Shown here piece after piece: positions 3,499 through 15,946 of a DNA stretch of 64,000 bases. Position 1 is the stretch's first letter. Each line of letters begins with the position of its first letter. A model generated the notes under the pieces. It did not search any database. It was not told the origin of the DNA and was given only the letters and a program-made list of their open reading frames with translations. The translations under genes and the position numbers were made by a program. The stretch is from Massilia sp. CF038 (GTDB taxonomy: Bacteria; Pseudomonadota; Gammaproteobacteria; Burkholderiales; Burkholderiaceae_D): contig NZ_FQWU01000005.1 of assembly GCF_900129765.1 (NCBI RefSeq), forward strand, positions 1 through 64,000, in the 5' to 3' direction.

Positions 3499-4848
3499 AT
3501 GCAACGTACATTGTTATTCAAGATTCTCATCATCCTCGGCATCACCGTGCTGATCGCCGTGGCGTTGGGGATGATTCAGTCAACCATCAACGATCGCGCC
3601 CAATTTCGCGATGACGCCGTCAAAAGCGTGTCGTCGGAGTCGGTGCGCGAGCAAACCATCACCGGGCCGATTCTGGTGGTGCCCTACGTTGACGAGTATG
3701 TGGAACTGATTCCGGCCAAGAGCAAAAACGAGCCTGCGGAAACGGTGCGCCGCAGCGTCACCCGCAAACATCTGGTGTTTCCGAACCAGCTCGACATCAA
3801 TGGCAAGATCGATACCTATCGCCGCTATCGTGGCATCCACCAGGTGCTGATGTATGGCGGCGTGCACGCGATCAAGGGTGATTTTGCACTGCCCGCGTTA
3901 AACGCGCTGCCGCGCGCTTCGCCCAATTCCAGCCTGACCTTGCGCCCGGCCTATCTGGCCCTCGGTATCGAGGACGTGCGCGGCATTGCCGACTTTCCAA
4001 AGGTGGACTGGAACGGCGGCGCGATCGAGTTCCAGCAAGGCAGCGGCCTGCAAGCACTGCGCGGCGGCCTGCATGCCGATCTGCCCGCGATGGAACTGGG
4101 CGGCAAAGCGAAGTTTTCGTTCACCCTGAAACTGAATGGTATCGAACGTCAGCATGTGGTCCCGGTGGGGAAGAACAATACGATCACGCTTGCGTCGAAC
4201 TGGCCGCATCCGCAGTTTGGCGGGGATTTTTTGCCGTCGCCCGAGCGCACCATTAACGAGAATGGTTTCAATGCGACGTGGACGATTGCCTCTTTGGCGA
4301 CCAACGCCCAGCAGCAGCTGCGCGACATTGAAGTGGGCAGCGAACCAGGCAAGGTCTGTAATGTGGACTCGTTCAGCGTCGCCTTCATCGAACCGGTCAA
4401 TGTGTATTCGATGGCCGAGCGGGCCACCAAGTACGGGCTGCTGTTCGTGGCGCTGACGTTTGCCGCCTTCTTCATGTTCGAGGTGCTCAAGCTGCTGCCG
4501 ATTCACCCGGTGCAGTATTTGCTGGTCGGCCTGGCGCTGGTGCTGTTCTTCCTGCTCCTGGTGAGTTTGTCCGAGCACATCGCGTTCCTGACGGCGTACC
4601 TGATTGCCAGCGCGGCGTGCATTCTGCTGATTGGCTACTACCTTGCTGCGGTGCTGCGTGACTGGACCCGGGGGCTTGGCTTCGGCACCGCGCTCACGCT
4701 GCTGTACGGCGCGCTGTATGGCTTGCTGGTGTCGGAAAATAATGCGCTGGTGCTGGGTAGTATTCTGCTGTTCGCCGTGCTGTCGGGCGTGATGGTTGCA
4801 ACCCGCAAGGTCGACTGGTACCAGATCGGGAAGACCAGCGCCATCTGA
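3499..4848 (+). CDS. creD: Inner-membrane protein CreD
   Basis: The 449-residue product matches the CreD family in length and layout. One N-terminal membrane helix (about 9-27) is followed by a large periplasmic domain (about 30-310) and a cluster of hydrophobic helices at the C-terminus (about 315-440). CreD is a CreB-regulated envelope protein in enterobacteria and Stenotrophomonas, linked to envelope integrity and beta-lactam or colicin responses; its molecular activity is not known. The start ATG follows GGGAG at a six-base spacing. A 71-base gap separates it from creC, but no TTCAC-N6-TTCAC CreB box was found there. Confidence 0.9.
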   Translation: MQRTLLFKILIILGITVLIAVALGMIQSTINDRAQFRDDAVKSVSSESVREQTITGPILVVPYVDEYVELIPAKSKNEPAETVRRSVTRKHLVFPNQLDINGKIDTYRRYRGIHQVLMYGGVHAIKGDFALPALNALPRASPNSSLTLRPAYLALGIEDVRGIADFPKVDWNGGAIEFQQGSGLQALRGGLHADLPAMELGGKAKFSFTLKLNGIERQHVVPVGKNNTITLASNWPHPQFGGDFLPSPERTINENGFNATWTIASLATNAQQQLRDIEVGSEPGKVCNVDSFSVAFIEPVNVYSMAERATKYGLLFVALTFAAFFMFEVLKLLPIHPVQYLLVGLALVLFFLLLVSLSEHIAFLTAYLIASAACILLIGYYLAAVLRDWTRGLGFGTALTLLYGALYGLLVSENNALVLGSILLFAVLSGVMVATRKVDWYQIGKTSAI

Positions 4849-4935
4849 ACATCGCCCTCGCGGAGGCGGGGGCCTATACCACTTAACCGAATTCGGTTAA
4901 GTGGTATGGCCCCCCGCCTTCGCGAGGGCGATGTT
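4849..4935. repeat. Long palindromic repeat, copy 1
   Basis: An 87-base near-perfect palindrome centred on GAATTC, with arms of about 43 bases (one mismatch, one bulge). The outer arms carry the CGCCCTCGCG...GGCGGGGGCC core shared by all copies. It starts at the creD stop codon and could fold into a very stable hairpin on either strand, so it may act as a bidirectional terminator for the convergent creD and terA-like genes. Confidence 0.9.
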
Positions 4936-5192
4936 GATTTTTAGTCCGTGGTACCCGTTTTTTATCAATCAGATTAGCAAGGAAAGCGCAGTGTGAGAAG
5001 GTTATCCTCGTGCCGCATACCTCATCGCCCTCGCGAAGGCGGGGGCCTATACCGCCTAACCGAATTCGGTTAAGTGGTATGCGCCCCCGCCTTCGCGAGG
5101 GCGATGTTGATTTAATCCGTGGTACCCGTTTTTTATCAATCAGATTAGCAAGGAAAGCGCAGTGTGAGAAGGTTATCCTCGCGCCGCATACC
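4936..5192. repeat. Duplicated spacer between palindromes (172-bp tandem unit)
   Basis: Bases 4936-5022 and 5108-5192 are almost identical to each other (TGATTT, a CCGTGGTACCCG motif, a T-run, ATCAATCAGATTAG, GAAGGTTATCCTCG). Together with the adjoining palindromes they form a tandem direct repeat with a period of about 172 bases, two full units plus a third palindrome. The palindrome and its flank have therefore been amplified as one unit, not inserted independently. Confidence 0.88.
5023..5107. repeat. Long palindromic repeat, copy 2
   Basis: Same element as at 4849, with the same CGAATTCGG centre and outer arms and a few substitutions in the inner arms. It is embedded in the tandem array between creD and the terA-like gene. 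Confidence 0.9.
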
Positions 5193-5278
5193 TCATCGCC
5201 CTCGCGCAGGCGGGGGCCTATACCGCATGGCCGAATTCGGCGAGGTGGAATAGGCCCCCGCCTTCGCGAGGGCGATGT
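5193..5278. repeat. Long palindromic repeat, copy 3 (diverged centre)
   Basis: The outer arms are conserved, but the inner right arm has drifted so the centre pairs less well. A degenerate half copy (about 5314-5340, GGCCCCCGCC...GGCGATGC) follows just before the stop codon of the terA-like gene. The 496-base stretch 4849-5344 holds nothing but this array. Confidence 0.88.
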
Positions 5279-5344
5279 GGTGCTAGTCCTAAGTTTCCGT
5301 CTCCAGCGAAGGTCGGCCCCCGCCTGCCCGAAGGCGATGCTGGT

Positions 5345-6568
5345 TCAGTCCTTGGTGCCCGTGGTCCAGCGCAGGCCGAAGCCGAAACGGCGGTCCATCA
5401 GCTCGTGCGCGCTTTCGCGGCCCTGCTGCGAGAAGTACTCTTCCAGCTTGGTGATCTGCAGATTGCCGCTGCGGTTTTCGATCATCGCAATCGCGCACAT
5501 CATCTGGGTGCCGCCTTGCTGCAGCTTGACTTCAATTGGCGCCTGGTCCGGCATCGCCACTGTCACCACGCCGTCGGTCGCGGCCCAGTTCGGGGCGCCC
5601 TTGTAGATGAACGCAAAAATCATCGCGCGCTTGATGTCGCCCACATGGTCGCCGTTGATGACCAGATTTTCACCGTTGCTGGCCTGGCCCGTGCGATCGT
5701 CGCCTTCCAGTTTGATGTAGGGCGGGCGGTCGAAGTCGCCCCAGGCATTGCCCAATGCCTGCACCAGGCCCGGACGGCCGTCGGCCATTTCGTACATGCA
5801 GCCCAGATCGAGGTCGATGCCTTCGCTGGCGCCACCGCCGGTGATGCGCGCCAGGAAGCCGGTGCGCTGGGCCGGTGGTGCCGAGCCACCGCTGCGGTTC
5901 CAGTTCAGGTTGACGTGAATGCGACCGAAACCGCGGCCACCGGCGCGTTTTTCGAGCGAGACTTTGTCGCCACGCTTTTCCAGCGTCACCTTCGACAGCG
6001 ACACGCGCGGCGGCGGTGCTGCCGAAGGGCCGGGTGCGGGCGCCGATGGCGACGCCGGCGCAGCCTCGGTGCCGCCGAAGTGCTTGAGCAGCGCCGACAG
6101 GCCGCCATTGAAGCCCTGGCCAACCGCGCCAAAGCGCCATACCCCATCCTTGCGGTAGATCTCGCCGAGAATGAGCGCCTTTTCGTCCTGGAAGTCGGCC
6201 CCGCTGAGTGGGAACTGAACGGCGTCACCCAGCGTCATGCTGCTCGCGCCCAGCGCGCGCATGGTGCCGTTACCGTCGATGGCGGCCACGAACACCAGCT
6301 TGACGATGGAATCGGGCAGGGCGTTCAGGTTCAGTGTAAAACGCGCGCGGCCATTGTCCAGATTGAGCACGATGGCGTCGGCCGGTGCGGCCAGCTGGTT
6401 GTAGAACACCATGAAGCGCTCGTCGGACAGTTTGTCGGCGCTGTCAACACCGAAGCACGAGACGTCGATCGACATGCCGTTGGCGCCCAGCGCCAGGTCG
6501 ACCGGGAAGGGTGCATTCAGGCCCAGGTCGGCCAGTTTGCCCTTTTGTCCACGCGAGAATATATTCAC
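5345..6568 (-). CDS. TerA-like protein with two TerD-type domains
   Basis: From a GTG start preceded by AAGGA the product is 407 residues. Residues about 1-170 form a TerD-like domain ending in GEIYRKDGVWRFGAVGQGFNG, very close to the same segment of the TerD protein encoded at 11636-12211. An Ala/Pro-rich linker follows (about 170-200). The second half (about 235-400) resembles TerA and contains many acidic residues (DLDLG, GDFDRPP, EGDDRTG) as in Ca-binding Ter folds. It is the last gene of the ter operon. TerA proteins belong to stress and tellurite-response clusters and are thought to act in cytoplasmic metal-dependent complexes. The terA name is likely but not proven. Confidence 0.8.
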   Translation of the reverse strand: MNIFSRGQKGKLADLGLNAPFPVDLALGANGMSIDVSCFGVDSADKLSDERFMVFYNQLAAPADAIVLNLDNGRARFTLNLNALPDSIVKLVFVAAIDGNGTMRALGASSMTLGDAVQFPLSGADFQDEKALILGEIYRKDGVWRFGAVGQGFNGGLSALLKHFGGTEAAPASPSAPAPGPSAAPPPRVSLSKVTLEKRGDKVSLEKRAGGRGFGRIHVNLNWNRSGGSAPPAQRTGFLARITGGGASEGIDLDLGCMYEMADGRPGLVQALGNAWGDFDRPPYIKLEGDDRTGQASNGENLVINGDHVGDIKRAMIFAFIYKGAPNWAATDGVVTVAMPDQAPIEVKLQQGGTQMMCAIAMIENRSGNLQITKLEEYFSQQGRESAHELMDRRFGFGLRWTTGTKD

Positions 6569-6594
6569 AATGCTTTCCTTTTCGGTTGAAGAGT

Positions 6595-7488
6595 TCAGGG
6601 AGCGGCAGTATCGCTCTGGTGCGCACCAAAAATGTTCGACTGCTCGACCATGCGCTGGGCCCAGGCGCGGTGGGTCGCCACTTCGCACATTGAATTATGC
6701 ATCTTGAACACGGCCGGGCTGTCTTCGTCCAGAATGGCACGCGCAGCTTCCAGGTCGCGTGCCTTGACCCGGTAATGCTGCTCGATCAGCGCGATCTGGC
6801 TGGGATGGATGGCGGTTTTGCCCACCATCCCGTAGGCCATGTCCTCGGCCACTTCCTGGTCCAGCAGTTCGGGCAGATCCAGGTGCTCGAACACGGGCGC
6901 TGTCAGCACGAAGCCATACGGGCGGAAGGTGGTGACCAGGCGCGCAATGACGGGGCCCAGTGGGGTGCGGTAAATGGTCAGGTTGCGCGGACGGCGCAAG
7001 CCCAGCAAGGCAAGCAGGTCGTTGCCGCCAATGCGCAGCGCCAGGATACGCGAGCGCACGCCCGGCGCTTCCAGCACTTCGCGGAACAGGCGCATCTCGT
7101 TGTCATTGAATACGTCTGCTGTCTCCAGCGTTGGCATCAGCATGTGTTCGGTGTGGCGCACCAGTTTGAAGTAGGCGTCAAAGTTGTGCCGGGTGCACTT
7201 GGGCAGCACGAAGCCGGTCAGCTTTTCGGCGCCTGGCATGGCCAGTACGCGGGCCAGTACTTCCGGATTGCGGACCCGGACAAAGCGTTCTGCGCTGGCT
7301 TCAGCGCGCATATTGGCCAGCACCACTGACAGATTGAACAGCGCCCAGCTCAAGTCGGCATCAGCGACGGCATCCTCGGTACAGAAGATCAGCGAGCGGG
7401 TGTGACCAAGGCGGCTGCCATCGGCCACCGCCATCAGATGCTTGTGGTTTGCGGGTATATAGAGCGAAGCGCCCATTGACTTAGCCAT
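6595..7488 (-). CDS. HpcH/HpaI aldolase / citrate-lyase-like enzyme of the ter operon
   Basis: The 297-residue product fits the TIM-barrel family of HpcH/HpaI aldolases and citrate lyase beta subunits: SLIFCTEDAV near the N-terminus, LPKCTRH in the middle, an LMPTLET strand with the conserved Glu, a RIGGNDLL segment, and the closing GKTAIHPSQIALI typical of CitE. Such enzymes make or break C-C bonds of oxo-acids or CoA thioesters using Mg2+. In ter clusters this gene is a standing member of the predicted nucleoside-type biosynthesis set. The ATG at 7488 is chosen because AGGAG lies eight bases upstream; it overlaps the end of the previous gene by eight bases. Confidence 0.85.
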   Translation of the reverse strand: MAKSMGASLYIPANHKHLMAVADGSRLGHTRSLIFCTEDAVADADLSWALFNLSVVLANMRAEASAERFVRVRNPEVLARVLAMPGAEKLTGFVLPKCTRHNFDAYFKLVRHTEHMLMPTLETADVFNDNEMRLFREVLEAPGVRSRILALRIGGNDLLALLGLRRPRNLTIYRTPLGPVIARLVTTFRPYGFVLTAPVFEHLDLPELLDQEVAEDMAYGMVGKTAIHPSQIALIEQHYRVKARDLEAARAILDEDSPAVFKMHNSMCEVATHRAWAQRMVEQSNIFGAHQSDTAAP

Positions 7489-8566
7489 CCAGTGCACTCC
7501 TGATCAGCGATACTGCGTGGTAGGGCAGACCAGGGTCGGTCGCCACGGGGATGTTTTTTTCCTGGGCCAGCAGGAGCAGGTGAGCTACTTCGGGCGCCTG
7601 CGGCTCGCGCACGATCAGCAGGCGCGGGCTGCGCCGCAACAGCACGCGGGTGGCTTCGCCAATGCCCGGCTTGACCAAGTTGACGTCGGCAATGCCGTGC
7701 TGCGCCAGCGCGGCCTGCATGTACTGGCGCGATACGGCGGCGGCCCGGGCGCGGTCCATGGGCGCCGCCGTGCCTTGCGGCTGCCCTTGTCCGCGAGCGC
7801 GCGCGATCAGGTCGTCGGCAAAGCGCTGCGACTGGTCGTGCGCTTCAAACTGCTGGTAATACACGCAGCCATGGAAGTCGCCGGGGCCGATGGCGTCATT
7901 CAGGATCGAGCGGCTGACCAGGCCGGAGACGGTCGCATTCAGAATGCTCGACGGGATCAGGTAGTCGTCGCAGGAGGCGGCACAAGCCGCCGTACCGGCC
8001 AGGTCGGACAGCACGTACAGACCACCATCAATGGCGGTGCCGTGGTGCGCATTGAAGCTGGCGACGGCCGTTTCCAGCTCGCGCGAGATGACCCCCTTGC
8101 CGGTCCAGCCGTCGATAAACACCAGCGACTCGGGCGCGTGGCCGGCTGCCAGAATATGTTCGAGCGCGACCTGGTCGATACCGCGGTCGCGGATGATCGA
8201 CACCGAATAATGCGCCGCTTCGCGTCCCAGCACGCCAGTGAGCAGGTGTTTCAGGACGACGCCCACCGGCGTGCCGGCGCGTGCCAGCGAGACCAGCGTG
8301 ATCGGGCCGCTACGGCGCGCTGCAATCAGCGCGGCCAGGGTCAGGCAGTCGCGCGCCATGCGCTCCAGATTGATGGCACAGGCCTGGCGGAACACTTCCA
8401 GGTAGCGTGCGGAAGGCAGTGACTCCGGCGACAGCATTTCGCTGTAATGGCGCTGGCCGGACTGGATCAGCCTTTCCTTTTCCGGAATGTCGACAAAGTC
8501 CTGCAAGGCCAGAGGCTTGAGCAGGAAGCTGACGTCGCCGCTGCGGTAGCTGCCAGAGAAATTCAT
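7481..8566 (-). CDS. StiP-family protein with C-terminal Pelota-like RNA-binding domain
   Basis: The 361-residue product starts at an ATG preceded by GGAGG and overlapping the upstream stop (ATGA). Residues about 10-250 match the family annotated as 'cysteine protease StiP'. That part contains SLARAGTPVGVVLKHLL and FIDGWTGKGVIS, which look to me more like the substrate and PRPP loops of a phosphoribosyltransferase than protease motifs. Residues about 285-360 (VKPGIGEATRVLLRR ... VATDPGLPYHAVSLI) fit the small Pelota/L7Ae-type RNA-binding domain found fused in this family. It is one of the ter-operon enzymes; its reaction is not known. Confidence 0.8.
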   Translation of the reverse strand: MNFSGSYRSGDVSFLLKPLALQDFVDIPEKERLIQSGQRHYSEMLSPESLPSARYLEVFRQACAINLERMARDCLTLAALIAARRSGPITLVSLARAGTPVGVVLKHLLTGVLGREAAHYSVSIIRDRGIDQVALEHILAAGHAPESLVFIDGWTGKGVISRELETAVASFNAHHGTAIDGGLYVLSDLAGTAACAASCDDYLIPSSILNATVSGLVSRSILNDAIGPGDFHGCVYYQQFEAHDQSQRFADDLIARARGQGQPQGTAAPMDRARAAAVSRQYMQAALAQHGIADVNLVKPGIGEATRVLLRRSPRLLIVREPQAPEVAHLLLLAQEKNIPVATDPGLPYHAVSLIRSALDG

Positions 8567-9324
8567 AGCGCCTCCAGCGTCAGGCCAGCCAGCTGGGTGC
8601 GGGGCGGCACGATGGCGTAGTCGCAGGCGGCCATGAAGCGCGCGTCGGAACGGCTGTCGCCCATGCCGAAGGTGAGAATGTCGCCGTGCTGTTCGCGCAG
8701 GCGCTCGATCACGTATTGCACCGCGTGCGCCTTGTTGAGCGCATTGGGCAGAATCGCCAGGTTGTTGCCGTTGCGATGAATGAAGTAGTCGTGTCCCCCA
8801 GCTGCGATCCACGGCGCGACTACCTCGGTTTCAATCGGCACCAGGCGCGCGGCGATCTTGTCGACGTCCTTGACCACCAGGTAGAAGGGCGTGTCGAAGT
8901 CTTCGATCAGGCGCGCACGGCCGGCAAAGCCGGTGCGCTCGGCCCAGGCATCGATCAATGCAGCCAGTTCACGCAAGCCGGGCAGGGCGGCTTGCATGGC
9001 GCCCTGCATATGCGCGTGCCAGTGCTGATCGAGCGCACCGCCCGGCTGCAGCACCACCCCGCCGTAGTCAAGCACGGCCCAGCTTTCGAAGGGCAGGTCG
9101 ACCCGGCCAAAGGCGTTCAGGTTGCGCGCCGTCGCGGGAATCATGGTCATGCCGTCCTGCGCAAAGGCGATGAATGCGCGCTGGCGCTCGGTGCTGTACG
9201 AGATCGGGCTGCCATCCTTGAGGAAGGCAGCCGGACGCAGGGCGTCGCTGTCGCCGCATTTTTCGCGCGACTGGAACAGGGTGTCGTCCAGGTCAGCGAA
9301 CAGGAATTTCTGATACTTCTTCAA
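8563..9324 (-). CDS. HAD-superfamily phosphatase of the ter operon
   Basis: Motif I is clear at the very N-terminus (LFADLDDTLF, with DxDDT), and motif IV is near the C-terminus (FGMGDSRSDARFM). A Lys-bearing middle region completes a 253-residue Cof-like HAD hydrolase. The family dephosphorylates sugar phosphates and nucleotides, which fits a late step after ribosyl transfer. It appears to start with TTG, 32 bases inside the preceding gene, because no ATG occurs before motif I. Its stop overlaps the ATG of the StiP-like gene by four bases. Expression therefore depends on translational coupling. Confidence 0.85.
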   Translation of the reverse strand: MKKYQKFLFADLDDTLFQSREKCGDSDALRPAAFLKDGSPISYSTERQRAFIAFAQDGMTMIPATARNLNAFGRVDLPFESWAVLDYGGVVLQPGGALDQHWHAHMQGAMQAALPGLRELAALIDAWAERTGFAGRARLIEDFDTPFYLVVKDVDKIAARLVPIETEVVAPWIAAGGHDYFIHRNGNNLAILPNALNKAHAVQYVIERLREQHGDILTFGMGDSRSDARFMAACDYAIVPPRTQLAGLTLEAL

Positions 9325-10462
9325 CTTCGGTCTCGCTTATAAAGTGGAACAGGCGTGCCTTGAACACGCCGGCCAGCTGGAACAGCGCCTCATTGGGCGC
9401 GGTCTCGTGGCAGATGAACACATGCTGGTACTGGTCAGGGGCGACGTTATACAGGAAATTGGTCACGCCTTCACCATAGTTGTCGTGGAACGCAAGCGCG
9501 GCCGACACGGCGCCCCATTTCAAGATGGGAGAGCGGGTGGTGGACTGCACCACCACATCGACGCCGCGCTGCTCCAGCGCTGCACCCAGCAGGAAGGCAG
9601 GGTGCATGAATTCGCCCGTGCCCAGCACCAGCACACGCTCGCCGCCGCGCACCTGGCCGGCCAGGCTGTCGGCCAGCGCGGCTGGCACGGTCAATGGGTC
9701 GTTCAGGCCGAAGCGGCCAAATGCGCCGCTGGCGCCGCGGTCGGCGCTGGCGTCGAAACGCTGGGCTGGCGCCCCTTCGGCAGCCAGTTCGCCAGGAATG
9801 AACTGATATTCGCCATTCAGGGCCGCGGCCATGCTGGTGGGCAGGCCAAAGCGCTCGCGCAGTGCGGCGGTGGCATCGTCCCCCATGAAGTTGGTGATGG
9901 CAGCCAGGTGCACCCGTTCGATCCCGGGATTGAGTTCGCGGCATGCATTGGCCAGATTCAGGAAGGTGTTGCCGGTGCTGGCTTCATCGTCGACCAGCAC
10001 CAGGGTGCGGGCCGAGAGCAGCAGGGCGCGCTGCTGCGGGTCGGGCGGCATGTGCAGGAACTGGCGCGGCGCATGGCTGTGCGCTTCGGCGAACTCGATG
10101 ATGGGCACTTCGCCCACGTGATAGCGGGTGGTGTGAATGAACAGGGCTTCGCGCCCGGGATGGGCGCGCAGCCAGGCTTCGAAGACGCCCTGGCCCAGGC
10201 CGATCGCCGTTTCGGCCATGGCGATGAATACCACGGGCCCCTCGATGGCTGGCACGCTGGCCGCCATCTGGTCATGGATGGTGCGCATGGTCGATGGCGT
10301 GACCGGCCAGTGCTTGCCCAGCACCTTGGACAGGAACAGAAAACCGCGCTTGTTGTTGGCGCGCGCGGCAAAGCCGACCAGTTCGTCGAGCGGGAAGGCG
10401 CTGTTGGTCACGCTCAGTTCCAGCGTGCCGGTGGGCAGGGTGATGGTGTGTTGTTCGATCAT
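9293..10462 (-). CDS. PRPP-dependent phosphoribosyltransferase with TRSP-type C-terminal domain (ter operon)
   Basis: The 389-residue product carries an unmistakable PRPP-binding loop, TLVLVDDEASTGNTFLN (about residues 155-171), in a type I phosphoribosyltransferase fold. Its C-terminal part (about 265-389: GERVLVLGTGEFMHPAFLLG ... HDNYGEGVTNFLYN) matches the TRSP domain that accompanies such enzymes in ter clusters. It would transfer a ribose-phosphate onto an unknown base or base-like acceptor. The ATG at 10462 has GGAG five bases upstream and overlaps the ATP-grasp stop (ATGA). A longer frame reaching to 10873 lies antisense-like within the ATP-grasp gene and is discarded. Confidence 0.87.
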   Translation of the reverse strand: MIEQHTITLPTGTLELSVTNSAFPLDELVGFAARANNKRGFLFLSKVLGKHWPVTPSTMRTIHDQMAASVPAIEGPVVFIAMAETAIGLGQGVFEAWLRAHPGREALFIHTTRYHVGEVPIIEFAEAHSHAPRQFLHMPPDPQQRALLLSARTLVLVDDEASTGNTFLNLANACRELNPGIERVHLAAITNFMGDDATAALRERFGLPTSMAAALNGEYQFIPGELAAEGAPAQRFDASADRGASGAFGRFGLNDPLTVPAALADSLAGQVRGGERVLVLGTGEFMHPAFLLGAALEQRGVDVVVQSTTRSPILKWGAVSAALAFHDNYGEGVTNFLYNVAPDQYQHVFICHETAPNEALFQLAGVFKARLFHFISETEVEEVSEIPVR

Positions 10463-11478
10463 GCCAGCTCCGTCGCTTCGCTCAGTTCGGCCACGCGGAT
10501 GCCGTTGCGCACAGGTGCCACATGGACCTGGTCGAAGCCGTCGGCAAATCCGGCCAGGGCAATGTAGGGCAGGTTGGGGCCCGCCACGCAGGCCATGCCG
10601 ATTCCACCCGACATGCGCGGATTGATTTCGAGCAGGCGCAGCTGGTCGCCCCCTTCGCGGAATTGCACGTTGAAGCAGCCGTTCAGGCCAAACTGCGCGG
10701 CCAGGCGGGTGCAGGCGTCCACGATATCGGCGCGCATGTCGATCAGCTGCCCGCGGCCGGCCTGCTGCGGCTTCTTGCGCGCCACTGCTGCCACCAGGCG
10801 GCCCTGGTCGCCGACGCAGTCGACGCTGTATTCGTGGCCGTCCAGGTACTCCATCAGCAGCATGGTGCGGCACTCGCCCAGCTCTTCCAGCCCGCGCCGC
10901 ATGTCGGCCAGACCAATGTGGTACTGGGCGCCGGCCATCAGCAGGGCGGCGCTGCTGCGTTCTTCATCAAGCACGGCAAAGCCCAGGCCAAATACCGACT
11001 GTGCCGGTTTGACGCACAGCTTGGGGTGGCGCTGGCGCAGTTCGGCATAGGCAGCATCGAACTGGGCCAGGTTTTCGAACATGCGCGTGTCGGCCAGCGG
11101 CGCCTGGGGCAGGTCCAGGCTGGCGTAGAAGCGGGCCTTGTCATGGATCAGTTCCAGCGCGGCAGGCTGGCCTGCGCTGAGCACACGCGTGCCTTGCGCT
11201 TCAAAGCGGGCATGGGCGCCAGCCAGGGCAGTTGATTCCTTGCCGGGAATGAAAATGTCGACCGCATGCTCACGGCAAAATGCCAGGCACCAGTCAATGT
11301 AGGCATCCGTGTCCAGGCCGGTGGGTTCGGGCAGGAACTGGTGCGCCACGCGGGCCGCCGCAGCGTGCGGATTGGCATTGCTGTAAATCAGATGGAAACG
11401 TCCAGCCTGATCCGCTTCACGGATCAGGCCGATGGCCGCATACACGGACGAGAACGTCCTGTTAAACCAGACACGCAT
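10459..11478 (-). CDS. ATP-grasp ligase of the ter operon
   Basis: The 339-residue product has the ATP-grasp layout. An N-terminal pre-ATP-grasp Rossmann region is followed by the lid and Lys region (KLCVKPAQSVFGLGF), an acidic strand (LLMEYLDGHEYSVD) and the metal-binding RLLEINPRMSGG near residue 285. Family members join a carboxylate to an amine or thiol with ATP. In this operon it probably activates a carboxylic acid on the small molecule made by the neighbouring transferase and lyase. The start ATG follows GAAGG at six bases. A 157-base gap with a 26-base inverted repeat (11551-11576) separates it from terD. Confidence 0.87.
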   Translation of the reverse strand: MRVWFNRTFSSVYAAIGLIREADQAGRFHLIYSNANPHAAAARVAHQFLPEPTGLDTDAYIDWCLAFCREHAVDIFIPGKESTALAGAHARFEAQGTRVLSAGQPAALELIHDKARFYASLDLPQAPLADTRMFENLAQFDAAYAELRQRHPKLCVKPAQSVFGLGFAVLDEERSSAALLMAGAQYHIGLADMRRGLEELGECRTMLLMEYLDGHEYSVDCVGDQGRLVAAVARKKPQQAGRGQLIDMRADIVDACTRLAAQFGLNGCFNVQFREGGDQLRLLEINPRMSGGIGMACVAGPNLPYIALAGFADGFDQVHVAPVRNGIRVAELSEATELA

Positions 11479-11550
11479 GAATTACCTTCAAAAACTGTTG
11501 GAACGCGGGGTGGGACGGACACGGGAATCGTGTCGTTTTGTCAATTCTAA

Positions 11551-11576
11551 CCGGAATGGCGCGTTTGCCATCCCGG
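11551..11576 (-). terminator. Inverted repeat between terD and the ATP-grasp gene
   Basis: On the minus strand a 10-bp stem (CCGGGATGGC pairing with GCCATTCCGG, one wobble) encloses a six-base loop. Only a weak T-rich stretch follows, so it is more likely a partial terminator or RNA-stability element setting the ratio of terD to the downstream enzymes than a full stop. A second small stem, GACACG/CGTGTC, lies at 11518-11534. Confidence 0.4.
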
Positions 11577-11635
11577 CTGTCGTGCAGGGTGCGCCGCCTG
11601 CGCTGGCCGGCACAGGCAGGTGTGCTGCGGATGAA

Positions 11636-12211
11636 TCAGGCGTTCACGCCGTAGGAGCGGGCCAGGGGACCGAGGCCGCCCTTGAAACCCTGGCCAATGG
11701 CCTTGAATTTCCACTCGGCGCCAGCGCGGTACAGTTCGCCAAAGATCATGGCCGTTTCGGTCGAGCCGTCTTCGGACAGATCGTAGCGCGCCAGCTCCTT
11801 GTTGCTGCTGTTGTCGACGCAGCGGATGTAGGCCTTGCTTACCATGCCAAAGTTCTGGCGGCGCGCATCGGCTTCGTGGATGGTGACGCTGAACGGAATG
11901 CGGTCGATGTCGGCTGGTACGCGCGACAGGTCGACAATGATTTTTTCGTCATCGCCATCGCCCTGGCCCGAGGTATTGTCGCCCTGGTGCACAACCGAGC
12001 CGTCCACTGACTTCAGGTTGTTGTAGAAGATGAAGTCGGAATCGCTACGGACCTTGCCGTCGGCCTTGACCATGAAGGCGCTGCCGTCCAGGTCGAAGGC
12101 GGCGCCGTCGGTGGCGCGCGGGTCCCAGCCCAGGCCGATCAAGACCTGGGTCAGCCCTGGCGCTTCCTTGCTGAGGTTGACGTTGCCGCCTTTTTGCAAA
12201 CTGATTGCCAT
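11636..12211 (-). CDS. terD: TerD-family Ca-binding stress protein
   Basis: The 191-residue product is full length for TerD. It starts [10 protein letters not shown], has the acidic Ca2+-binding segments [16 protein letters not shown] and [13 protein letters not shown], and ends with the family signature [19 protein letters not shown]. TerD proteins are cytoplasmic and linked to tellurite, phage and oxidative stress resistance. The start has an ideal AAGGAG six bases upstream. It is the first gene of the seven-gene minus-strand operon and probably the most highly expressed. TerE or TerZ are close paralogues and cannot be excluded by name. Confidence 0.92.
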
Positions 12212-12240
12212 CGAATACTCCTTGTCTGGTTAGAAAATGA

Positions 12241-12260
12241 CCCGCGCGACGCGGCGCGGG
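12241..12260. promoter_or_regulatory. Perfect GC hairpin in the terD 5' leader
   Basis: CCCGCGC (12241-12247) pairs with GCGCGGG (12254-12260) around a six-base loop, 30 bases upstream of the terD start and inside the 190-base divergent region with the gene at 12402. It could be an mRNA leader hairpin or a dyad operator. No convincing pair of -35/-10 boxes was found for terD. Confidence 0.35.
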
Positions 12261-12401
12261 CTCGCACACCCTAAATGGGCACGCTACGTAATCAATCAAG
12301 CAATCTATTTTAGCCCGGGTACAACGGAAAACCGGTAGTTGCTAGGCAGAAATTGAGATTGCACTGTACACTGGAGGTCTTCCCCTCGCTTTGCCGCCAC
12401 C

Positions 12402-12899
12402 ATGACGACCGATCTCGACAGCCGCCGTTCCATCCGCACCATTTCGCGCGCCGATTTCGCCGGTTTCCCGGTGTGGGAGTGGGCGCTGAACGAAGAAGCG
12501 ACCCTGGGCCAGAATGAATCGTTCGTGCGCCCGACCGCCCTGGCCGCGATCGCACTCGAACAGCCATGCCAGCTGGTGGTCGCTGCCACCTTCACGCTCA
12601 GCAATGGCGCCTGTCTGCCGGGCTGCGTCGAGCTCGACATCCGGGCCCGCAAAGTGCGCGCCGTGCCCATGTTCCTCCTGCTGCAAGACCGCCACCTGGA
12701 ATTGGGCGACGAGCAGACCTTGAGTACGCTGGCCCACTTCACCAAGGTGGCCGACGTGCGCCCGGTGGCCTGGGAACTGGCGGTGCCTGTTGCCGGCCAG
12801 AGCGGTCCGCTGCGCGGCAGCATCCGCCGCAGCCTGCGCAGCCGGATTGCCAGCCTGTGGCGGCGCTCGCCTTCGCAGGTCGCCTCGATCCTGGGTTGA
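12402..12899 (+). CDS. Hypothetical protein divergent from terD
   Basis: I do not recognise this 165-residue protein. It has no signal peptide or membrane helix. The body (about residues 18-135) has a mixed strand pattern (QLVVAATFTLSNG, ELDIRARKVRAVPMFLLLQD), and the C-terminus is Arg/Ser-rich (RGSIRRSLRSR). Two cysteines occur in LPGCVEL and QPCQL. There is no ribosome binding site just before the ATG; the only GGAGG lies 24 bases upstream. Codon composition fits the neighbours. Its position head to head with terD suggests a link to the ter operon, but no function is assigned. Confidence 0.65.
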   Translation: MTTDLDSRRSIRTISRADFAGFPVWEWALNEEATLGQNESFVRPTALAAIALEQPCQLVVAATFTLSNGACLPGCVELDIRARKVRAVPMFLLLQDRHLELGDEQTLSTLAHFTKVADVRPVAWELAVPVAGQSGPLRGSIRRSLRSRIASLWRRSPSQVASILG

Positions 12900-12942
12900 G
12901 CCGCCTCACCCGGCCGCCTTGCTCAACTTGCGAAAAGTTTAA

Positions 12943-12958
12943 GGGCACAGCTTTAGCC
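12943..12958 (+). promoter_or_regulatory. Candidate sigma-54 promoter upstream of the PEP-CTERM pair
   Basis: GGGCAC at the -24 position and TAGC at -12 keep the invariant GG-N10-GC spacing of RpoN promoters (GG at 12944-12945, GC at 12956-12957). The leader to the first PEP-CTERM gene would be about 200 bases. RpoN with PrsK/PrsR is known to control PEP-CTERM genes in related bacteria, so the match is worth testing, but the -12 half is imperfect. Confidence 0.35.
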
Positions 12959-13167
12959 TGTCACCGGTAAAGTCTTGTTGCTTTCACCGCGCAATATATC
13001 GCTCCGGAAAGTTAAGTGGTCATCTTGCACTTTCGGTAAACTTTACATTTGTTCATCCCAGCGAGAGTATGGTTGCGCGCTTGCCCAGTAACGGCGGGCG
13101 CTCTGCATAGCGGCATGAATTGTGCTTTGTGCAACGTCACATCAATTTGATGCTCACTGGAGAAATC

Positions 13168-13740
13168 ATGACCCGCCTTAAACTTTTGCTCGCAACTCTG
13201 TGCATGACCGTTTCAAGCCTGGCCTCGGCCGGCGTTGTCTACACCTGGCAGGCAAGCAGCCTCTCGACCGAGATCTACAATATGAGCGGCTACATCGAGC
13301 TGGCCGACTCGGCCGCAGGCCATATTAACTACAACGCGGTCAATTGCGCCGACTGGCCTTGCGACTTGTCCGATCCAGGCAGCCCCATCCTGAAATTCGT
13401 GATGAAGATCAATCAGCCACAGGGATCGCTGGATATCGATTTGCTGGCGGGGACCGGCTACAACTTCAACACCCCATCGTTTGACGCCAGCTTCGACATT
13501 CTGGGTGACCGTCTGAGCAACTTCAGCCTGTATATCAACACCATCCAATCGTCCCTGCGCATCGACGGCGACTATGTTGCCCTGTTCAGCAGCGACACTG
13601 ACAATTGTCTGTTTGGCTGTTCCGGCGCTACCGGCGAGTTCGTGCGCGCTGCCCAGGTGCCGGAACCCGGTTCGCTGGCACTGCTGGCGCTGGCCGGTTT
13701 CGGCCTGGCCTTTGGCCGCAAGCGCGCTGCCTCCGTCTAA
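13168..13740 (+). CDS. PEP-CTERM exported protein 1
   Basis: The 190-residue product has a Sec signal peptide (residues 1-21, cleaved near LASAG) and a canonical PEP-CTERM tail: VPEP at about residue 164, a hydrophobic helix, then GRKRAA. Such tails are recognised by an exosortase (EpsH/XrtA type) that anchors the protein at the cell surface in exopolysaccharide-producing bacteria. The mature part has two cysteine pairs (NCADWPC and NCLFGC), probably disulphides. The ATG at 13168 follows GGAG at five bases; the frame upstream is discarded. A near paralogue follows directly. No exosortase gene is in the window. Confidence 0.92.
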   Translation: MTRLKLLLATLCMTVSSLASAGVVYTWQASSLSTEIYNMSGYIELADSAAGHINYNAVNCADWPCDLSDPGSPILKFVMKINQPQGSLDIDLLAGTGYNFNTPSFDASFDILGDRLSNFSLYINTIQSSLRIDGDYVALFSSDTDNCLFGCSGATGEFVRAAQVPEPGSLALLALAGFGLAFGRKRAASV

Positions 13741-13756
13741 GGCAGGATAAGCTGAG

Positions 13757-13798
13757 AGCGCTGGTGGGGCAGTTTGCCCCGCCAGCGCTTTTTTCTTT
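13757..13798 (+). terminator. Strong terminator between the two PEP-CTERM genes
   Basis: A 14-bp stem (13757-13770 with 13776-13789, one G-T pair) and a five-base loop are followed by TTTTTTCTTTT. The second gene's ribosome binding site lies directly after the T-tract. Most transcripts should stop here, so the downstream paralogue would be expressed at a lower, read-through level or conditionally. Confidence 0.88.
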
Positions 13799-13811
13799 TC
13801 CAGGAGACATG

Positions 13812-14393
13812 ATGAAACCCCTAAAATTGCTGTTTGCACTTGCCTGTCTGAGCTTGTCGTCGCTGGCCTCGGCCGGCGTCCTCTACCAGTGGAACGTGGC
13901 CAGCGTGTCGACCGAGATCCGCAACGTGACCGGTTTCATTGAATTGCGCGATGGGGCCGCTGGCCATATTGATTATTCATTGCCGCCGTGCAACAGCACC
14001 CCCTGCGACCATGCCGATCCGCTCAGCCCGATTCTACGGATCGGCATGATGTTCAACGACCTGTGGGACGGCGCCATCGATATCGATGTGCTGGCCGGTA
14101 CCGGCTTTGTGCTCGACGATCCCAAGTTTGACCTGGCGTTCACCATCGATGGCAACCGCCTGACCCATCTGAACCTGATGATCAACACGCTGTTTTCGAC
14201 CCTGCGCATTGATGAGGGCAATATCGTGTTTTACGCCAGCGACAGCGACAATTGCTATCTGGGCTGCAGCGGCAGTTCGGGCCAGTTTGCGCGCCCGGCG
14301 GTGGTGCCCGAGCCCGCTTCCATGGCCTTGCTGGCGCTGGCTGGGATGGCGCTGGCATGTGTCCGCAGGCGCCCGGCGGCTCGATCGAAGTAA
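13812..14393 (+). CDS. PEP-CTERM exported protein 2 (tandem paralogue)
   Basis: The 193-residue product has the same build as its neighbour: signal peptide ending LASAG, the shared segments VSTEI, GFIEL, AAGHI, IDVLAGTG, INT and DSDNC, two Cys pairs (CNSTPC, NCYLGC), and the tail VPEPASMALLALAG then CVRRRP. It is clearly a tandem duplicate diverged by about half of its residues. Of two adjacent ATG codons, the second (13812) is better placed, five bases after AGGAG. It would be an exosortase substrate at the cell surface; its specific role is not known. Confidence 0.9.
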   Translation: MKPLKLLFALACLSLSSLASAGVLYQWNVASVSTEIRNVTGFIELRDGAAGHIDYSLPPCNSTPCDHADPLSPILRIGMMFNDLWDGAIDIDVLAGTGFVLDDPKFDLAFTIDGNRLTHLNLMINTLFSTLRIDEGNIVFYASDSDNCYLGCSGSSGQFARPAVVPEPASMALLALAGMALACVRRRPAARSK

Positions 14394-14541
14394 GTACTCG
14401 CTTTCGGCTTGGGTGGCATGGCAGGCGCCATCCGGCCTGACTATGCAGCCAGTTGGCAAGGGGCCGGGCAGCTGCTGTCTGCCCGGCTGTGCGATTGCCG
14501 CAACGGGCGCCGTTTACCTCGACATACCCCCAACTAAGTTG

Positions 14542-14570
14542 TTGCGTCAAGCCCTTTTGCGGGTTATACT
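14542..14570 (+). promoter_or_regulatory. Sigma-70 promoter for rplC
   Basis: TTGCGT (14542-14547) and TATACT (14565-14570) are 17 bases apart, giving a strong housekeeping promoter about 100 bases before the rplC start. It replaces the usual transcription from upstream of rpsJ. A GC hairpin without T-tract (14462-14488) lies upstream and may end transcription of the PEP-CTERM genes. The rest of 14394-14666 shows no gene. Confidence 0.82.
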
Positions 14571-14666
14571 AGCCGGCTTCGGTATGGATTCGTCTTTTTT
14601 GAATCTGTCCTTTACTTGGTAGTTAAACATCAGCCCCGCCCAATCGCAGGTGGGAATGGAGAAAAA

Positions 14667-15323
14667 ATGAGCCTGGGCCTTCTCGGTCGCAAGGTTGGTA
14701 TGATGCGCATCTTCACGGATGACGGGGATTCGATCCCAGTTACCGTGCTTGACGTGTCGAACAACCGTGTTGCGCAAATCAAAACTCCTGAAACAGACGG
14801 TTATACCGCTGTTCAGGTCGCTTTCGGTCAACGTCGCGCTTCCCGCGTGAACAAGGCTGTAGCGGGTCATCACGCCAAAGCTGGCGTGGAAGCCGGCACC
14901 ATGCTGCGCGAATTCCGCGTCGATGCTGCCAAAGCCTCCGAACTGAAAGCTGGCGACGTTGTCGCTGCCTCGCTGTTCGAAGTCGGTCAAAAGATCGACG
15001 TACAAGGCGTCACGATCGGTAAGGGTTACGCTGGCGTCATCAAGCGTTACCACTTCGCTTCCGGTCGTCAGACCCACGGTAACTCGCGTTCGCACAATGT
15101 GCCGGGCTCGATTGGTATGGCGCAGGATCCAGGTCGCGTGTTCCCTGGTAAGCGCATGACCGGTCACCTGGGTGACGTTACCCGTACCGTACAGAATCTC
15201 GAAATCGCCCGTATCGATGCCGACCGTCAGCTGCTGCTGGTCAAAGGCGCCGTACCTGGTGCGAAAAATGGTCAGGTCGTTGTTTCGCCTGCGATCAAAG
15301 CCAAAGCACAGAAAGGAGCTTAA
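14667..15323 (+). CDS. rplC: 50S ribosomal protein L3
   Basis: The 218-residue product starts [12 protein letters not shown] and has the L3 signatures [10 protein letters not shown] and [18 protein letters not shown], where the conserved Gln is the methylation site in enterobacteria. L3 is an early 50S assembly protein reaching towards the peptidyl transferase centre. The ATG at 14667 follows TGGAG; the longer upstream frame is not conserved. It is the first gene of an operon running to rpsQ, driven by its own promoter. Confidence 0.98.
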
Positions 15324-15325
15324 TT

Positions 15326-15946
15326 ATGGAACTCAAGCTTCTCAATGAGCAAGGTCAAGCAGGTTCGAACGTTGCTGCTGCCGATACCGTATTCGGCCGT
15401 GACTACAACGAAGCCCTGATTCATCAGATCGTCGTCGCCTACGCTGCCAACGCACGTAGCGGCAACCGCAAGCAGAAAGATCGTGAAGAAGTTCACCACA
15501 CGACCAAGAAGCCATGGCGTCAAAAAGGTACGGGCCGCGCTCGTGCTGGTATGTCGTCCTCGCCACTGTGGCGCGGCGGTGGTCGCATCTTCCCGAACTC
15601 GCCTGACGAGAACTTCACCCACAAAGTGAACAAGAAGATGTATCGCGCAGGTATCTGCTCGATCCTGTCCCAGCTGGCACGCGAAGAGCGCCTGGTGGTT
15701 GTTGAAGGTCTGTCGATCGACGCGCCAAAAACCAAGCTGCTGTCGCAAAAGCTGCAGGGCATGGGCCTGGAATCGGTCATGATCATCACCGACAACCTGG
15801 AAGAAAACCTGTTGCTGGCATCGCGCAATCTGCCGAACGTGCTCGTCGTTGAGCCACGTCACGCTGACCCGATGTCGCTGGTGTTCTACAAAAAAATCGT
15901 GGTCACCAAAGCAGCACTGGCCATGATCGAGGAGATGTTCGCATGA
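15326..15946 (+). CDS. rplD: 50S ribosomal protein L4
   Basis: The 206-residue product has the L4 core: [23 protein letters not shown] at the loop that enters the 50S exit tunnel, then GTGRARAG. In E. coli, L4 represses the S10 operon by binding the leader before rpsJ. That leader is no longer joined to rplC here, so the same control cannot act in the same way. The gene starts two bases after rplC, its AAAGGAG site lying inside the end of rplC, and overlaps rplW by four bases. Confidence 0.97.

Follow-up and report, generated by a model that had tools for sequence, protein, structure and literature searches.

What might a row of small-molecule enzyme genes enclosed by genes for TerD-domain proteins make, and would the Ter proteins respond to the product? 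Here we address this question for seven minus-strand open reading frames (ORFs) that run from position 12211 down to 5345 of a 64,000-nucleotide stretch of DNA from Massilia sp. CF038 (contig NZ_FQWU01000005.1, positions 1 to 64,000; hereafter the window). Judged by its sequence, the locus is a chromosomal, well-preserved and ordinary copy of an already predicted Ter-linked biosynthetic module. The best explanation for it, which we hold with moderate confidence, is a ribose-containing, nucleoside-like product that is sensed by Ter proteins. We favour this explanation because of the family assignments, the invariant catalytic residues, the structural models of two putative transferases that resemble phosphoribosyltransferases (PRTases), the co-occurrence of the StiP, PRTase_2 and TerD families, and the conserved gene order.

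All seven genes lie on the minus strand. The first, terD (11636..12211), encodes a 191-residue protein that matches PF02342 at 286 bits and is predicted to be a ligand- or metal-binding partner. It is followed, after a gap of 157 bases (11479..11635), by the five enzyme genes. These encode an ATP-grasp ligase of 339 residues (10459..11478; PF15632, ATPgrasp_Ter, 158 bits), a PRTase_2 phosphoribosyltransferase of 389 residues with a C-terminal TRSP domain (9293..10462; PF15609 and PF12500), a HAD-type phosphatase of 253 residues that resembles Cof and MPGP (type IIB) and has a TTG start (8563..9324; PF08282 and PF05116, named Hydrolase_3 and S6PP, both above cut-off), a 361-residue StiP protein with a C-terminal Pelota/L7Ae-like domain (7481..8566; PF11202, 332 bits; PF15608, 102 bits), and a CitE/HpcH-type TIM-barrel C-C bond lyase of 297 residues (6595..7488; PF15617, 311 bits). 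The phosphatase gene is thus situated between the genes for the two putative PRTases. ATPgrasp_Ter, PRTase_2-TRSP, PF11202-PELOTA_1 and C-C_Bond_Lyase all score above their Pfam cut-offs in adjacent genes; NCBIfam gave sub-cut-off matches only, including HAD-IIB models for the phosphatase. The last gene (5345..6568, GTG start) encodes a 407-residue protein with a second TerD domain (PF02342, 100 bits, residues 29-164), so that TerD-domain genes stand on both sides of the enzymes. This protein has no vWA-TerF match, and its C-terminal region has no Pfam match. The label 'TerA-like' rests on its size, its position and the missing vWA match, and on what we take to be the architecture of TerA. The seven genes described in a sequence-only reading of this DNA are thus real, and the families that Pfam assigns to them are those of the published Ter-linked biosynthetic set.

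From terD to the TerA-like gene, the intergenic distances are 157, -4, -32, -4, -8 and +26 bases. The overlaps of 4, 32, 4 and 8 bases given in that reading are exact by the ORF coordinates. They link the five enzyme genes only, so the very tight coupling that it saw holds for these five and does not extend to terD, 157 bases upstream, or to the TerA-like gene, 26 bases downstream. A separate promoter in the 157-base gap is possible; four promoter-like matches occur on both strands of the 8.5-kb region against 1.4 expected, and the weak one at 11571-11544 is no evidence by itself. The ratio of nonsynonymous to synonymous substitution rates (dN/dS) is 0.10-0.35 across 20 gene pairs with three related loci (L028 and L033, seven genes each; L032, six), which shows the genes of the locus to be under purifying selection.

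The active sites of the module enzymes appear intact. They were compared in alignments of the window protein with a part of the long-enough genes, picked by eye to shorten the lists (76 of 82 StiP, 61 of 69 PRTase_2, 43 of 67 lyase, 31 of 46 ATP-grasp and 40 of 76 HAD genes, plus the window). PRTase_2 keeps D158, D159, E160, G164 and T166 in 62/62 rows; the phosphatase keeps D11, D13, T65, K198, D223 and D227 in 41/41; the lyase keeps R71, E122 and D157 in 44/44; and the ATP-grasp enzyme keeps K114, K157, E216, E284 and N286 in 32/32. The catalytic roles of these residues are assumed from their superfamilies. The sequence-only reading had pointed to loss of the phosphoribosyl pyrophosphate (PRPP) and ATP-grasp active sites in relatives as evidence that would speak against it; the PRPP-loop and ATP-grasp residues are unchanged in all aligned rows. 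The predicted PRTase_2 structure (predicted local distance difference test (pLDDT) score 93.9) has 187 Protein Data Bank (PDB) matches at E <= 1e-3, APRT and XPRT chains among them, and 43 of the 50 PDB rows listed are PRTases or PRTase-related, with two purine repressors and five uninformative titles. By sequence, no solved relative of PRTase_2 was found beyond a marginal UMP synthase match and one chance-like match. The lyase profile matches CitE structures.

For StiP, transferase identity is less clear in the models than it is for PRTase_2. The predicted StiP structure (mean pLDDT 95.4) matches HGPRT and PyrR chains, the best Foldseek E-value being 1.4e-3 and none reaching 1e-3. The 50 PDB rows listed comprise 29 PRTases, four PyrR proteins, one L7Ae-like RNA-binding protein, nine inhibitor complexes, presumably of HGPRT, and seven pyridoxal-phosphate-type enzymes with a template modelling (TM) score of about 0.2. 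Profile searches found no solved relative of the transferase half by sequence. The protein carries a loop, F-x-D-G-W-T-G-K-G, in which F150, D152, W154, K157 and G158 are kept in 77/77 rows. Both Pfam and database annotation give the family a current title of cysteine protease, and StiP would on that account cleave proteins. However, no cysteine is invariant among the 77 rows (C234, the best conserved, is kept in 73 and replaced by A, S or V in the other four), and the fold matches PRTases. Because of this fold, the PRPP-type loop and the lack of an invariant cysteine, StiP looks like a second phosphoribosyltransferase that would bind PRPP, and we rejected the protease function, to which we give almost no credence. 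No support for the protease title was found. A 2026 paper lists PF11202 as PRTase_1 in the part available (PMC13109261), so the family may have received its protease title later.

A PRTase fold would also suit a regulator. Both transferases could be sensors of the PyrR or PurR kind, with the operon tuning nucleotide pools under stress, as the four PyrR rows for StiP, the two PurR rows among the PRTase_2 matches listed, and the unusual PRPP loop of StiP (DGWTGKG) might suggest. The acidic pair and the T/S-G-x-T loop of PRTase_2 are kept in 62/62 rows, however, and the adjacent genes encode catalytic enzymes whose active sites do not vary, which makes such a role rather improbable.

The families occur together more often than chance would predict. 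StiP is present in 20 of 116 genomes of the same family, and PRTase_2 is above cut-off in those same 20 (11 further genomes have weak sub-cut-off matches). TerD is found in 29 of the 116, namely all 20 StiP genomes and 9 of the 96 others. Fisher p values for co-occurrence with StiP, which ignore kinship, are 7e-16 for TerD and 7e-23 for PRTase_2. Among 397 phylum-level genomes, StiP matches were found in 20 at E 0.001, 15 of them above cut-off, including that of the window. The near relatives named in the StiP scan are Massilia, Duganella, Janthinobacterium, Rugamonas and allied genera.

Eighteen loci (L018-L035) from the 19 other StiP genomes of the family were mapped by profile; in the remaining one, L012, the contig is 3.1 kb long and truncated inside the gene set. 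All 18 have the five enzyme genes in the unbroken order ATP-grasp, PRTase_2, HAD, StiP, lyase, and eight carry the full seven-gene string. Of 14 loci taken from the phylum sample, 3 have the unbroken five-gene order, 11 have PRTase_2-HAD-StiP and 2 have PRTase_2-StiP-HAD. A wider set was drawn from the best 80 of at least 593 StiP relatives in named genomes, a choice that favours near relatives, and flanking genes were called in it by purpose-built profiles; some of these loci are the same records as family loci (L079 and L031, for example, lie on contigs of equal length), and the two sets are not additive. Here the five-gene string is found in 37 loci, the seven-gene string in 13, PRTase_2-HAD-StiP in 62 and PRTase_2-StiP-HAD in 4. 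The seven-gene order, for which a search had been proposed as a check, recurs in part of each set (8/18 and 13/80). Among the 42 loci with full flanks, PRTase_2 and HAD each lie near StiP in 39, the lyase in 38 and ATP-grasp in 25. In three Nocardia loci (L148, L149 and L150), two lyase-profile matches precede PRTase_2 and the order is PRTase_2-StiP-HAD. Two IMG/VR viral contigs (L152 and L153) carry the module, L152 with ATP-grasp, PRTase_2, HAD, StiP, lyase and several TerD/TerA-type genes.

These distributions also bear on the idea that the genes are only carried together, each with an unrelated function of its own. ATP-grasp and lyase do come and go independently of the rest. Yet StiP and above-cut-off PRTase_2 occupy identical sets of 20 genomes, the genes overlap, and their order is shared with a Klebsiella plasmid and with loci of other named groups; we consider mere co-travel very unlikely.

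The coming and going of the lyase and the ATP-grasp enzyme points instead to a smaller core within the predicted pathway. In the stretch examined, six genomes (G219, G195, G323, G481, G462 and G214) show PRTase_2, HAD and StiP but neither lyase nor ATP-grasp. When the six genomes were searched whole, the lyase family was absent from two, below cut-off in two (1.6e-5 and 3e-5) and weakly above it in G323 (4e-7) and G481 (2e-8), as in 4 of 14 control genomes. The ATP-grasp family was weakly above cut-off in all six (8e-11 to 2e-7), as in 12 of the 14 controls; the best matches in G195 and G219, found in frames 367 and 372 codons long, could represent a free-standing ligase. The Acinetobacter jumbo phage vB_AbaM_ME3 shares the order PRTase_2, HAD, StiP beside TerC and TerD, with no lyase or ATP-grasp detected by profile in the 17-kb stretch; its StiP is 31% identical. 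Because these six genomes and the phage keep the three genes without the other two, the two transferases and the phosphatase are likely to be the engine of the module, and the lyase and ATP-grasp enzyme its tailoring enzymes. Four loci do not fit this core: StiP has no PRTase_2 or HAD close by in L104, L119 and L124, and L062 has PRTase_2, StiP and lyase, with no HAD detected. The 'one assembly line' of the sequence-only reading was overstated; a fixed seven-step line is not what we see, since many loci with the two PRTases and the phosphatase lack ATP-grasp and lyase, and the Ter genes around the enzymes vary.

A TerD- or TerA-type gene is present in 36 of the 42 full-flank loci, TerC in 18 and AIM24 in 19; 'TerA' in these maps means TerA- or TerF-type, because the profile also picks up TerF-type genes (TerD plus vWA). 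Several observations weigh against a sensed, ribose-containing product. The constancy of StiP is by construction, since all loci were found through StiP and loci without it were not seen. The Foldseek E-values of StiP are weak. In 25 of the 80 wider loci there is no TerD/TerA-type gene in the DNA examined, much of it short contigs; of nine of these searched as whole genomes (six of them full-flank), seven have TerD elsewhere, and L124 and L127, both metagenome-assembled genomes (MAGs) that may be incomplete, have the module and no TerD. In three of the 42 full-flank loci (L104, L119 and L124), neither PRTase_2 nor HAD lies near StiP. Lastly, the Pelota domain has no obvious role in a pure small-molecule pathway. 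As a separate observation, genes for an Eco57I-type methylase and a BsuBI/PstI-type restriction enzyme come after the lone StiP of L124 (9983-13727), in a MAG without TerD.

Alternatively, StiP might act on RNA, as its Pelota domain and the StiP genes without PRTase_2 and HAD close by could suggest: the L7Ae-type domain would bind a kink-turn-like RNA to which the PRTase domain transfers ribosyl phosphate, or whose base it exchanges, so that a modified RNA would be the actual product and the phosphatase would trim off the added phosphate. The StiP profile matches archaeal L7Ae at E 0.0017, L7Ae K-K-G-T-N-E-T-T-K aligning with StiP K-P-G-I-G-E-A-T-R, and K299, G301, E304, R307, R311 and R312 are kept in 77/77 rows and T306 in 75/77. 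As the L7Ae signature is largely kept, RNA binding by this domain is plausible on sequence grounds. Yeast Rit1 offers a precedent for PRPP-dependent ribosylation of RNA. However, the StiP rows have Gly or Ala in place of the L7Ae asparagine, the partner proteins are small-molecule enzymes, and the domain could equally serve regulation or localization, so that action on RNA seems unlikely to us. Just as doubtful is a version in which the irreducible Ter unit is the phosphatase plus the two transferases, the second of which has an L7Ae-type RNA-binding head and ribosylates RNA or is switched by it, the metabolite being made on or released from RNA. A nucleoside-like product sensed by Ter proteins remains the explanation that we prefer.

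How does the copy in the window compare with known systems? The first description of a Ter-linked module for a nucleoside-like metabolite, by Anantharaman, Iyer and Aravind, is reportedly a work of comparative genomics. Compared through summaries of that paper (2012, Mol Biosyst 8:3142), the module has the same enzyme families and TerD-domain neighbours as the window locus, which lacks its TerC, TerB and TerF. In the sections available, later papers describe a Ter system whose PRTases and HAD enzymes make nucleoside or nucleotide derivatives as threat signals, TerB and TerD possibly acting as sensors and TerC being the membrane part, phage ME3 being named (PMC7824862), and a plasmid cluster predicted to make a nucleoside-like metabolite, its link to TerC being unclear (PMC8115787). 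The statement of the sequence-only reading that such a set is predicted to make a nucleoside-like metabolite agrees with these excerpts. In the part available, a third paper ties Ter genes to phage, colicin and tellurite resistance and words the same prediction, metabolite included, as shown, citing the 2012 paper (PMC12054061); given the kind of work cited, we take this as loose wording. No chemical proof or test of the five enzymes was found among the literature matches listed, which mostly do not cover subscription papers.

On one Klebsiella plasmid examined (pKPN-bbef, IncFIB/IncHI1B), the ter locus has ATP-grasp, PRTase, HAD-type, StiP and HpcH/HpaI lyase genes in the order of the window; the gene at the HAD position, annotated as hypothetical, matches the HAD profile and no Pfam model. 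There the set is oriented divergently to terA-E-type genes, and vWA, TerY-type and PP2C genes come after it, whereas the window copy is chromosomal. Among the plasmid rows listed, the enterobacterial ones share 40-42% identity with the window StiP, and that of a Polaromonas plasmid shares 72%. RipC/CitE C-C lyases share the TIM-barrel family of the window lyase, with E122 and D157 invariant; the window lyase is far under the RipC cut-off (44.7 versus 375 bits). None of the seven proteins matched a PADLOC 2.0.0 defence model at E 0.01, and a catalogued anti-phage defence system was therefore dropped as a candidate. The Klebsiella order, the phage ME3 set, the purifying selection and a TerC gene elsewhere in the genome add to our reasons for the preferred explanation.

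That TerC gene belongs to a second ter locus of the same genome, TerC-TerD-AIM24-TerD on contig C6 (G000:C6:1712000-1731999, 9948-13033; L036). A third has TerD beside TelA (G000:C3:349691-353257; L003), so the Ter system of this genome is spread over three loci. The seven-gene locus itself contains no TerC, unlike the terZABCDEF-type tellurite resistance operon. Beyond the TerA-like gene, the plus strand carries a response regulator, a histidine kinase and CreD; on the other side are two genes facing away, which we take to be rplC and rplD. The module fills this slot between creD and rplC/rplD (3499-15946). Of 17 genomes from the genus, 12 have StiP (in three pieces in G526), and in 11 of the 12 it lies between creD and rplD; with such an occurrence at one slot, a mobile island was dropped as a reading for this genus. 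In G111 a different contig carries the module, and the slot is closed, with about 0.7 kb between creD and rplC. Eight loci of the genus (L028 and L162-L168) have TerD plus a further TerD-domain gene upstream of ATP-grasp; the one such gene tested (L028, 4669-5472) is TerF-type, with TerD and vWA-TerF-like parts. The window and L161 lack it. Of the 18 family loci, 8 have TerC, TerD and AIM24 on the upstream side of the enzyme genes.

The surroundings hold further features. Downstream of the operon (4848-5345), three near-perfect palindromes with arms of 42-46 bases, 87-93% complementary and without spacer, are spaced 171-173 bases apart, with a partial fourth arm; they resemble REP-type elements or an array of terminators. 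A 165-residue plus-strand ORF with no Pfam match faces away from terD (12402-12899). At 13120-14393 are two similar tandem proteins, each with a terminal PEP-CTERM motif. In many proteobacteria rpsJ lies directly upstream of rplC; among ORFs of at least 100 residues, no S10 gene (rpsJ) was recognized there in the window (14393-14649).

Taken as a pathway, the module would most likely work as follows. PRTase_2-TRSP and StiP-Pelota, both presumably PRPP-dependent, would join an acceptor to ribose 5-phosphate, from which the HAD phosphatase would then strip the 5'-phosphate to leave a nucleoside-like compound. The CitE-like lyase might make or cut a C-C bond and so shape or supply the acceptor, and the ATP-grasp enzyme might join a carboxylate to an amine; both would be tailoring steps, dispensable in some lineages. 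TerD and the TerA-like protein would bind the product or respond to it, and TerC, a membrane partner encoded at the other locus, would act at the envelope. We infer these activities, their order, the nature of the product and its sensing from the observations above.

As far as the 2012 paper is represented by its summaries, the three-gene core, StiP as a putative second PRTase and the three ter loci are useful additions to the prediction. StiP, which serves as a marker of the module, occurs in 2568 of 72,556 plasmid records; 1684 of these are predicted to be conjugative, and most come from genera of the Enterobacteriaceae. A compact chromosomal copy, a likely minimal core and a doubted protease label would make in vitro testing of the old prediction easier.

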